Below, one piece after another: positions 6,315 through 22,126 of a DNA stretch of 64,000 bases (position 1 is its first letter; each line of letters begins with the position of its first letter). The notes under the pieces were generated by a model that made no database searches, was not told where the DNA came from, and worked only from the letters and a program-made list of their open reading frames with translations. Where the stretch lies: positions 1 to 64,000 of the IMG/VR virus record IMGVR_UViG_3300031976_000907. One strand, 5' to 3'. Source of the DNA: a virus. The position numbers and the translations under genes were made by a program.

Positions 6315-6773
6315 TTATAATCTACGCCAAAAGTGTTTAGCAGTATTAAATTTACTGCAGCGGATTATATGCGGGTTAATTAAAAATAGTTGGGAGTCAT
6401 CGCTTACAGATAAATCTAAGGCGATTATTTCATTGGATTTTAATTGTTTTAAAAACCCTAGTTTTTTAAGTTGAGTGAGTGCACGTGAGTGAAGTTTGTA
6501 GACATTGCCTGATCGACTTTCAAATGGCAGTGGGTAACAAGCGTAGTTGGTGTCTGTATCACGATAATGATTGATCTCTACGAACAATCGTTGTGATGCA
6601 GGAGGCAGCTGAACAAAGAGCTCTAGCAGATCGTATTTCTCATTTTTGGTAGACGTTGAGAAAGGTGAGATCGCTTGAAAGCGTCCTAGTGTGTTTCGTT
6701 GTTTGTGCTCAACAGTAAGCTTTACATCGGTTGGGAGTTCAACTCCCATCCATTTAGCGGTTTTTGTGGGCAT
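6315..6773 (-). CDS. Winged-helix protein, plasmid Rep-like or lysogeny regulator
   Basis: 152 residues. The C-terminal two thirds has the pattern of winged-helix replication initiators and regulators such as RepL: a helix (LVQLPPASQRLFVEI-like, about 50-70), a recognition-type helix ending in LTQLKKLGFLKQL (about 100-112) and a strand with LFLINPHII (about 130-138). It is divergent from the integrase across 668 bp holding attP. Two 19-bp palindromes lie 16 and 48 bp upstream of its ATG, which suggests autoregulation or a replication origin. As a candidate repressor or Rep of a temperate phage it is important, but the function is inference. Confidence 0.55.
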   Translation of the reverse strand: MPTKTAKWMGVELPTDVKLTVEHKQRNTLGRFQAISPFSTSTKNEKYDLLELFVQLPPASQRLFVEINHYRDTDTNYACYPLPFESRSGNVYKLHSRALTQLKKLGFLKQLKSNEIIALDLSVSDDSQLFLINPHIIRCSKFNTAKHFWRRL

Positions 6774-6788
6774 TCTATATCCTTAAAA

Positions 6789-6839
6789 ATCTACCTCTAA
6801 GGTAGATAATTAGCACAAAAATCTACTTCTAAGGTAGAT
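6789..6839. promoter_or_regulatory. Pair of palindromic operator sites
   Basis: ATCTACCT-CTA-AGGTAGAT at 6789-6807 (perfect 8-bp arms) and ATCTACTT-CTA-AGGTAGAT at 6821-6839 (one mismatch). Centres are 32 bp apart, three helical turns, which favours two dimers bound on one face. They overlap the expected promoter of the minus-strand winged-helix gene. The 3-nt spacer hairpin shape also resembles N4 virion RNAP promoters, but the loop lacks the purines expected there. Confidence 0.65.
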
Positions 6840-7066: not shown

Positions 7067-7431
7067 ATGGACGTCAGTCCACGCGCAGTGTAGAGTGCGA
7101 GAAGAGATAGCGAGCTGCGCAGAGTATTAATAATAGTATTATTATAAGTACGTCTAAGAGTACGGGTTAGAGTACGAAGTACGGATTGCCAATGGACGTC
7201 AAGTGGGCGTCAGTAACGCTACAGATCCCATGTTTACTCAGTTCTAAAGTCCGGTCCGGGGCACCATTTTCAGATTTTCCATACCTTTACAAACTTCTAA
7301 TATTACCTTCTAAAGCCCAATATACGGGCATTTCAGGCAGTTAGTCTGCTTGCTATGGTTTTACTCTTACTGGCATAATTCCACACCTTTCTGCGATGAA
7401 GGACGTCAAAAGACGTCAAGTCGGACGTCAA
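7067..7431. other. Phage attachment site attP with arm-type repeats
   Basis: The 20-nt core 7247-7266 ends in CCGGGGCACCA and has the spacing of a tRNA 3' end: AAGT of a T-loop, 5-nt T-stem CCGGT, 7-nt acceptor strand CCGGGGC, discriminator A and CCA. With a preceding TTC this would be a typical tRNA-Leu end (TTCAAGT loop). Flanking direct repeats GGACGTCA occur at 7069 and 7195 (a weaker GGGCGTCA at 7205) on the left and at 7401, 7411 (AGACGTCA) and 7423 on the right, as expected for integrase arm sites. The integrase starts 10 bp after the last repeat. Confidence 0.68.
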
Positions 7432-7441
7432 TGGAGTGGTT

Positions 7442-8422
7442 ATGGCGACATTTAGAAAAAGAGGATTACGTTGGTTTGCTGAGGTGAAGCTTAATGGTGT
7501 GCGTAGGGGTAAAACCTTTGACACTAAAGCTCAAGCAAAGAACTGGGCTGCTGCCGAGGAAACTCGGATTAACAGCTTAGGGGCTGGTGTAAGCCAAACA
7601 CATACACTGGGTGATGTGATGGAGCGTTACTTAAGTGAAGTGTCTCCGACAAAGCGAGGAGCTAAGTGGGAGAGTAATAGAATTATTGCTTACCTTCGCC
7701 ATGAGATCTCTACAGTAAAGTTAATGGATCTGAAGCGAGAGCACTTTGAAGATTTAATCGAAGAACGTCTCAAGTCTGTTAAGCCAAGTACAGTTAACCG
7801 TGATCTGAATCTCATCAGTAACTGTCTGACGTATGCACGTCGTTGGAGGTTAATGGATCACAATCCATTTGATGACTTGAAGCGTCCAACCGATCCTAAG
7901 CACCGTGAGCGTCTTATCTCTGTTGAAGAAATCGAAGAGATATTAATTAGCTTGGGTTACGTAGAAGGGGTTAAGCCAACTCTAAAACAGCATTATGCAG
8001 GATATGCATTTTTGTTTGCGATAGAGACAGCGATGCGTTTAGGTGAATTAACTGGCTTACGTCCTGAAGATGTCAATCTTACAAAGCGTGTAGCGCACTT
8101 ACCATTAACTAAGAACGGCTCGGCTCGCTCCGTTCCACTCAGCTCCCGTGCCGTTCAGCTATTAACTATGTTAAAGCCGTGGGAGCATGAGACTATCTTT
8201 CAGATGTCTTCAGAACAATGTGGTGCGTTGTTTCGTAAGGGGTTAGTGAGAACCAGGATAGAAGATTTAACGTTTCACGATACTCGCCATGAAGCGATTA
8301 CTCGTTTAGCACGTAAGGTAGAAGTATTAGATTTGGCTCGAATAGTGGGCCATAAAGACATCAAGATGTTGATGCGGTATTACAACCGAACAGCTGAGGA
8401 TATTGCTGCTCAGTTGGATTAA
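7442..8422 (+). CDS. int: Tyrosine site-specific recombinase (phage integrase)
   Basis: 326 residues from ATG 7442 (GGAG at 5-nt spacing; a GTG at 7436 is the alternative). N-terminal beta-sheet arm-binding domain (RKRGLRWFAEVKLNGVRRGK, residues about 4-23), then a SAM-like core-binding domain (about 50-150) and the catalytic domain with all expected residues: R199 (AMRLGEL), K224 (LTKNG), H279-x-x-R282 (HDTRHE), H304 (GHKD) and Y313 (MRYYN). It should integrate the genome at a host tRNA gene using the adjacent attP. The stop overlaps the convergent AlpA-like gene by 4 bp. An intact integrase is unexpected in an N4-like phage. Confidence 0.93.
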   Translation: MATFRKRGLRWFAEVKLNGVRRGKTFDTKAQAKNWAAAEETRINSLGAGVSQTHTLGDVMERYLSEVSPTKRGAKWESNRIIAYLRHEISTVKLMDLKREHFEDLIEERLKSVKPSTVNRDLNLISNCLTYARRWRLMDHNPFDDLKRPTDPKHRERLISVEEIEEILISLGYVEGVKPTLKQHYAGYAFLFAIETAMRLGELTGLRPEDVNLTKRVAHLPLTKNGSARSVPLSSRAVQLLTMLKPWEHETIFQMSSEQCGALFRKGLVRTRIEDLTFHDTRHEAITRLARKVEVLDLARIVGHKDIKMLMRYYNRTAEDIAAQLD

Positions 8423-8679
8423 TGTTTTACAGCCCACTTAATAACGTCCTGAGCACGCCACAGAGCGTTGCTACGCTGTCCTCTACCGTTTGGTAGGCGT
8501 ATGGCTTGGGGAAAGCTTTCTTGCTTGCTAGTGTGGTCTCTGAACGTTGTAGGTGATTGGCGTAAGTAAAGTGCGCAATCCTTACCGTTCCAAAGAGTTG
8601 TTTCATCTGGATGGCTCACCGCCAACCGCTGCGCTATGGCGTTCGCCAATAGATCATAATCAATTGATAAATCAGTCAT
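8419..8679 (-). CDS. AlpA/MerR-type helix-turn-helix protein
   Basis: 86 residues from ATG 8679, chosen because GGAG lies 8 nt upstream (a longer frame to 8715 lacks this). It has the HTH_17/AlpA pattern: LWNGKDCALYLRQSPTTFRDH, then FPQAIRLPNG and a final W-R-x-x-DVIKW. Such proteins regulate excision or integrase genes of prophages and satellites. It is convergent with int, sharing four bases at the stop codons, and follows the Xis-like gene. Confidence 0.75.
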   Translation of the reverse strand: MTDLSIDYDLLANAIAQRLAVSHPDETTLWNGKDCALYLRQSPTTFRDHTSKQESFPQAIRLPNGRGQRSNALWRAQDVIKWAVKH

Positions 8680-8720
8680 TGTGTTCTCCAAAGGTAGTGC
8701 CTCTGTGCGAGGCACAAGCC

Positions 8721-21664: not shown

Positions 21665-22126
21665 TTATGGTCGTTTATTCATTTTGGGCTTTTCGGTAAA
21701 CCAGTAAGTGTTACCTTGGCTGTCGAAGCAAGCCCAAGTAGCATCTGGCGGTGCGTCATCCCAATTGGGTGCATAAGGTTTAACTCTTGCATTATCGATC
21801 CACTCAAGAATCTCATCGAGGGATTTGCGCCCTAAATTAGGGATTTCAGCAAAGTCATAGCCAGCATTAAATGCGTTAAGTACTTCCTCTTTTGTGTGGA
21901 AGTCATAACTACGTAAAGCGTTTGCAGCACGTGTAGATAGTTCAGCTTGTAATGGAGTTTGCGGGTAGCGTGACGGGCGTAAGTGGGATCGAACTAACTC
22001 TCCTACCCGTTGTGCTGTGATGCCAAAATGTGCGCCTATTTGCCCATAGGTAAACCCATTTTGATACATTTCAGCCATAGCTTCTCTACGTGCTAAGCTT
22101 TTTTGTTTAATCTCAAGCGCCTTCAT
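21665..22126 (-). CDS. HTH protein fused to an RNA polymerase alphaCTD-like domain
   Basis: 153 residues. Residues about 18-48 form a sigma region 4-like HTH (MYQNGFTYGQIGAHFGITAQ). Residues about 60-112 closely follow the C-terminal domain of bacterial RNAP alpha: ELSTRAANALR corresponds to ELTVRSANCLK and IPNLGRKSLDEI to TPNLGKKSLTEI. The alpha DNA-contact residues R265, N268, G296, K298 and S299 all have counterparts (R66, N69, G99, K101, S102). A soluble C-terminal tail follows. GAGG ribosome binding site; directly downstream of RNAP2. A phage transcription factor is the obvious inference. Confidence 0.8.
   Translation of the reverse strand: MKALEIKQKSLARREAMAEMYQNGFTYGQIGAHFGITAQRVGELVRSHLRPSRYPQTPLQAELSTRAANALRSYDFHTKEEVLNAFNAGYDFAEIPNLGRKSLDEILEWIDNARVKPYAPNWDDAPPDATWACFDSQGNTYWFTEKPKMNKRP

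Follow-up and report, generated by a model that had tools for sequence, protein, structure and literature searches.

The window, i.e. the 64,000-nucleotide stretch of viral DNA analysed here (positions 1 to 64,000 of IMG/VR record IMGVR_UViG_3300031976_000907), carries a tRNA-like core surrounded by repeated GACGTCA motifs and followed by the gene of a tyrosine integrase. The core, AAGTCCGGTCCGGGGCACCA, occupies positions 7247-7266 of the plus strand, corresponds to the 3' end of a tRNA-Leu(UAA) from the T-loop to CCA, and is present in a single copy in the complete 71,350-bp record according to an exact search. The integrase gene (7442-8422, plus strand, 326 amino acids) begins 175 bp after the core. 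Its start had been set at GTG 7436, which gives the longer mechanical reading; the ATG at 7442 is the better choice, with GGAG five bases before it and with agreement to the MATF/MATI starts of related integrases. The protein matches the profiles PF00589 (E 8e-21) and phrog_1 (E 1e-60) and possesses the R-K-H-x-x-R-H-Y catalytic domain of tyrosine recombinases, residues R199, K224, H279, R282, H304 and Y313/Y314 being conserved in an alignment of 10 sequences.

On the minus strand, a gene encoding a 98-amino-acid protein (8419-8715) ends over the integrase stop codon. This protein is likely an excisionase or recombination directionality factor, a putative assignment that relies on its position and its homologs. 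It is 46% identical to a protein located at the equivalent place beside the closest related integrase, found in the bacterial genome G049, and homologs were also identified around the integrases of three further genomes (L036/L055, G449 and G145). It matched nothing in Pfam or NCBIfam. Its low-confidence model follows a helix-helix-strand-strand-helix order; as a single-sequence model it was too poor for a structure search.

The GACGTCA motif is found at positions 7070, 7195, 7402, 7412 and 7424, and a copy differing at one base, GGCGTCA, is present at 7206. The 5 copies of GACGTC within 362 bp compare with 0.08 expected from the frequency of this motif across the genome (Poisson P about 2e-8), and among 60 Markov-simulated genomes no 7-mer was clustered more than 4 times within a span of that length. 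On the left side, a GACGTCA/GGCGTCA pair (7195-7212, plus strand) with a spacing of 11 bp lies 52 and 41 bp from the core. On the right side, a GACGTCA triplet (7402-7430, plus strand) with spacings of 10 and 12 bp ends just before the integrase start. Putative arm sites thus flank the core on both sides, as in a heterobivalent attP of the lambda type. The copy at 7070-7076 (plus strand), 177 bp to the left of the core, may be a distant P-arm site; it is the least certain of the putative sites because no counterpart was detected within 300 bp upstream of the attR-like junction of G049, described below. IHF sites between core and arms are a feature of lambda-type attP sites; here no IHF consensus (0-1 mismatch) was detected between the core and the right arm, although more divergent sites may be present.

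A search of 84,980 collected genomes retrieved the exact 20-mer core in 6 contigs. In 5 of them it forms the 3' end of a tRNA-Leu(UAA) gene, and 3 of these 5 belong to Marinobacterium. The sixth is a Brevundimonas contig, where the match lies outside any tRNA and was taken as a chance occurrence. No exact match was retrieved in viral contigs. The identity extends past CCA into the T run, reaching 23 nt (L002, L003) or 24 nt (L006) with the Marinobacterium tRNA gene. Consistently with the original prediction, which saw the exact 3' end of a tRNA-Leu in the core and expected a match in a marine gammaproteobacterium, the core matches a tRNA-Leu(UAA) gene of Marinobacterium. The anticipated tRNA start, GCCCCGG, is found in three other tRNA-Leu genes (L004, L005 and G049), whereas Marinobacterium itself reads GCCCTGG, with a G-U pair. 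The 20-mer core also suggests that the host of this uncultivated virus is Marinobacterium or a close relative. Within the same genus, another element of 11,191 bp (L032, contig G008:C406) occupies the same tRNA-Leu site; it has one-mismatch copies of the 20-mer at both ends and encodes a different integrase-like protein of 467 amino acids. A degenerate core copy was also observed at L045:5175 (G333), 3.9 kb behind a tRNA-Leu attL, accompanied by a pair of TGCGAA units spaced by 11 bp, and possibly delimits a small integrated element.

We compared the layout of the region with that of related integrases, defined as those 39-61% identical to the window's and found in the family and order of Marinobacterium. 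A complete tRNA gene lies directly upstream in nine relatives (tRNA-Leu(UAA), at a distance of 157-188 bp, in 8 and tRNA-Phe in 1). Overall, 156-189 bp separate CCA from the integrase start codon. A triplet of repeats spaced by 10 or 11 bp and then by 12 bp precedes the integrase start in the window and in L021, L036, L038, L040-L043 and L022, and in each case 0 of 300 shuffled sequences matched it. The full triplet is absent from L037 and L039 and marginal in L008 (8 of 300 shuffles), and none was found beside six outgroup integrases (about 33-35% identity). The repeat units differ between relatives (GGACGTCAA, ATTACAGCA, ATTACGT, AGCACCATT, TGCACCG, ACTAGA) and therefore it is the spacing that is kept. 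The offsets of the triplet (-40, -30 and -18) are shared between the window and L021, an integrated relative. The left pair is likewise matched, at -54/-43 in the attR of G145 and at -55/-44 in the attR-like junction of G049, where it reads ATTACAGCA/AGTACAGCA. Unlike the right arm of the window, 4 of the 9 relatives (L021, L037, L038 and L039) exhibit IHF-consensus sites of the AATCAATGACTTA type, located 43-54 bp past the end of the tRNA.

The GACGTCA copies are best read as integrase arm sites because their spacing is kept while their sequence has diverged, and because the less related integrases are devoid of the triplet. The arm-site reading of the original prediction thus gains support from comparison. 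The copies could also be thought of as repressor operators controlling the integrase gene, the tRNA-like core alone serving integration, since GACGTC is perfectly palindromic and the integrase start directly adjoins three of its copies. We consider this very unlikely: copies also lie to the left of the core, away from the integrase promoter, the relatives keep the spacing with units that are not palindromic (ATTACAGCA and AGCACCATT among them), and G049 has the same unit on both sides of its core. With the copies taken as arm sites, this integrase clade illustrates clearly how the spacing of arm sites can be conserved while their sequence changes freely.

Duplicated core ends around prophages had also been anticipated. 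Exact duplications are present at both prophage ends in two relatives, over 19 nt in G449 and 20 nt in G145, and G049 adds an attL and an attR-like junction. When viral contigs were searched with one query protein, L008 was the only integrase recovered. A tRNA-like stretch near the L008 integrase runs in the opposite direction.

The genome carrying this attP is a complete N4-like virus (Schitoviridae), placed there by its hallmark genes, an assignment that was not part of the original prediction. A 3,354-codon frame (60793-70854 of the record; phrog_2206, E 0) encodes the virion RNA polymerase and agrees with the giant size of about 3,400 amino acids typical of Schitoviridae. N4-type RNAP1 and RNAP2, portal, major capsid protein, primase and terminase are all present, and the primase is 49% identical to those of Schitoviridae such as pYD6-A and Stoningtonvirus VBP47 (Fuhrmanvirinae, NC_020848). 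A protein containing the C-terminal domain of the bacterial RNA polymerase alpha subunit (PF03118, E 1e-8) is encoded at 21665-22126, next to the N4-type RNA polymerase genes. Because it closes with a 91-bp direct terminal repeat (positions 1-91 of the window and 71260-71350 of the record), the 71,350-bp record is best read as the complete circular map of the free form. Phage genes are found on both sides of the attP, and the claim that the genome is not integrated holds on these two grounds.

An N4-like genome with this cassette is found integrated at tRNA-Leu(UAA) in G049, a bacterium of Marinobacterium's family that carries the closest integrase (61% identity). Its 100-kb contig C16 exhibits tRNA-Gly, tRNA-Cys and a complete tRNA-Leu(UAA) with the integrase gene directly behind, followed in the window's order by the excisionase-like gene, PolA, helicase, HNH, ATPase, RNAP2, RNAP1, TerL, PhoH, portal, capsid and the start of the virion RNA polymerase. 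Identity to the window is 79% for TerL, 68% for the portal and 74% for the capsid protein. More of the virion RNA polymerase, SSB, Sak4 and primase are found on contig C48. Contig C25 comprises the primase N-terminus, the exonuclease (56%) and, 2.5 kb from the latter, an attR-like core that retains 18 of the 19 core bases and is accompanied by arm copies of the ATTACAGCA type, the same arm motif as on the integrase side. We infer the joining of the three contigs, so the integrated state with both an attL and an attR-like junction is documented for the lineage in this relative only and with that joining assumed. The contigs end in insertion-sequence-like DNA, and because these ends look like transposase genes when read from their translations, the G049 prophage is probably defunct.

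No integrated copy of the window's own phage was found, and no N4-like primase was detected in 390 genomes sampled from the order. Another genome of Marinobacterium's family harbours an N4-like contig of 74,901 bp (G024:C35; L150, L152, L153) whose primase is 41% and PolA 48% identical. In addition, a 75,126-bp record of Acinetobacter baumannii that is catalogued as a plasmid (NZ_CP110465.1) encodes an N4-like primase (46%) and may be an N4-like phage genome. That the relative is broken by insertion sequences and that this phage is not known in integrated form would fit a core that is a mere remnant, left by a lineage which once integrated here and whose system is now inactive. This seems very improbable to us given that the integrase is open with all its catalytic residues, the putative excisionase is open, the arm arrays are regular and the core is identical to the tRNA gene of a living Marinobacterium.

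Among 48 N4-like records, PF00589 was detected in 8, including that of the window. The closest of these by primase (62-66%) are three IMG/VR records, G494, G495 and G496. They resemble the window in having an integrase in the same slot and a homolog of a 152-amino-acid protein described below, but their integrases have no similarity to that of the window (tblastn at 1e-3). In G496, a tRNA-Leu-like 3' end, TTCAAGTCCGGCCCCGGGCACCA, lies 50 bp past the different integrase (L145:4904-4925) and is likely a second tRNA-Leu attP in N4-like viruses. The difference in integrase family from the nearest N4-like relatives would fit the cassette of an unrelated prophage having been misassembled into an N4-like genome. 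However, G049 has N4-like genes behind the same cassette, in an unchanged order and within a single 100-kb contig, and its exonuclease lies near the attR-like junction; the probability that the region is such a chimera is accordingly negligible.

The 152-amino-acid protein (6315-6773, minus strand) is winged-helix-like, is common to the integrase-bearing N4-like relatives and is nearly absent from the other N4-like loci compared. It retrieved nothing in Pfam or NCBIfam, and its model matched nothing in Foldseek at E below 0.001; VIA-align gave only middling matches, many of them to winged-helix domains (best Z 5.9). Two near-identical, operator-like 19-bp palindromes (6789-6807 and 6821-6839) lie before its gene. 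We treat the protein and the palindromes strictly as candidates for a regulator and its operators; no proven repressor was identified. A homolog was looked for near the attR-like junction of G049 and not found, and a VBP47 gene beside the exonuclease, tried as a counterpart, is not a homolog.

Phage N4 injects a giant RNA polymerase, so that early transcription begins at once. One may speculate, with considerable doubt, that there are temperate N4-like viruses with a lysogeny module between the nucleotide-metabolism genes and the exonuclease, which would combine exchangeable integrase cassettes repeatedly targeting tRNA-Leu(UAA) with a winged-helix protein acting on two 19-bp operators, and would thereby silence a virus whose injected polymerase would otherwise start the lytic programme.

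Taken together, the region 7070-7430 is read as the attP of the tyrosine integrase, with a core copied from the 3' end of the host tRNA-Leu(UAA), in a temperate N4-like virus captured in its free form (probability of about 0.94). The identity of the core, the anatomy of the site, its conserved geometry and the collinear relative integrated at the same tRNA are established. From these we infer how the site would work. The N-terminal domain of the integrase would bind the GACGTCA arms, two or three on the left and three on the right, and strand cutting and exchange would take place inside the core and the part of the host tRNA gene that is identical to it. Insertion of the phage, which would thereby become lysogenic, would restore the tRNA 3' end, and the 98-amino-acid protein would probably direct excision. 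Autoregulation is a further possibility: the triplet overlaps the start of the integrase gene and may allow the enzyme to damp its own expression. With a complete attP, a host target and a relative integrated there, lysogeny in the N4-like family becomes directly testable.

The site can be compared with several known systems. VBP47 shares with the window the order exonuclease, primase, Sak4, SSB, RuvC and virion RNA polymerase. Its slot between thymidylate synthase and exonuclease contains MazG and ribonucleotide reductase genes, with no integrase annotated there, whereas the equivalent slot of the window contains the attP, the integrase and the putative excisionase. The integrase family profile matches, with weak similarity, the solved phage integrase structures 5c6k (which we take to be a P2-type Int), HP1 Int (1aih) and 1z1b (presumably lambda Int). 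The attP of lambda has an arm-core-arm layout, which the attP of the window shares. It differs from the lambda, P2 and HP1 systems by its arm motif, and by its target, and no IHF consensus was detected between its core and right arm.

N4-like viruses have long been regarded as strictly lytic. A 2023 study (PMC10654107) proposed temperate members on the basis of 54 genomes encoding hallmarks of lysogeny (an integrase, transposase or DGR), together with 40 integrated N4-like proviruses. The Schitoviridae proviruses of that study resemble the case of the window in combining an N4-like genome with an integrase and in having integrated relatives. A term search of its text found no mention of attP, and no earlier mapping of att sites in Schitoviridae was found in the literature searched, most subscription journals being outside its coverage. 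Whereas that study describes integrase genes and proviral regions, the present analysis adds a resolved attP with its core and arms, the host gene that it targets, and an integrated relative for which both junctions are described.
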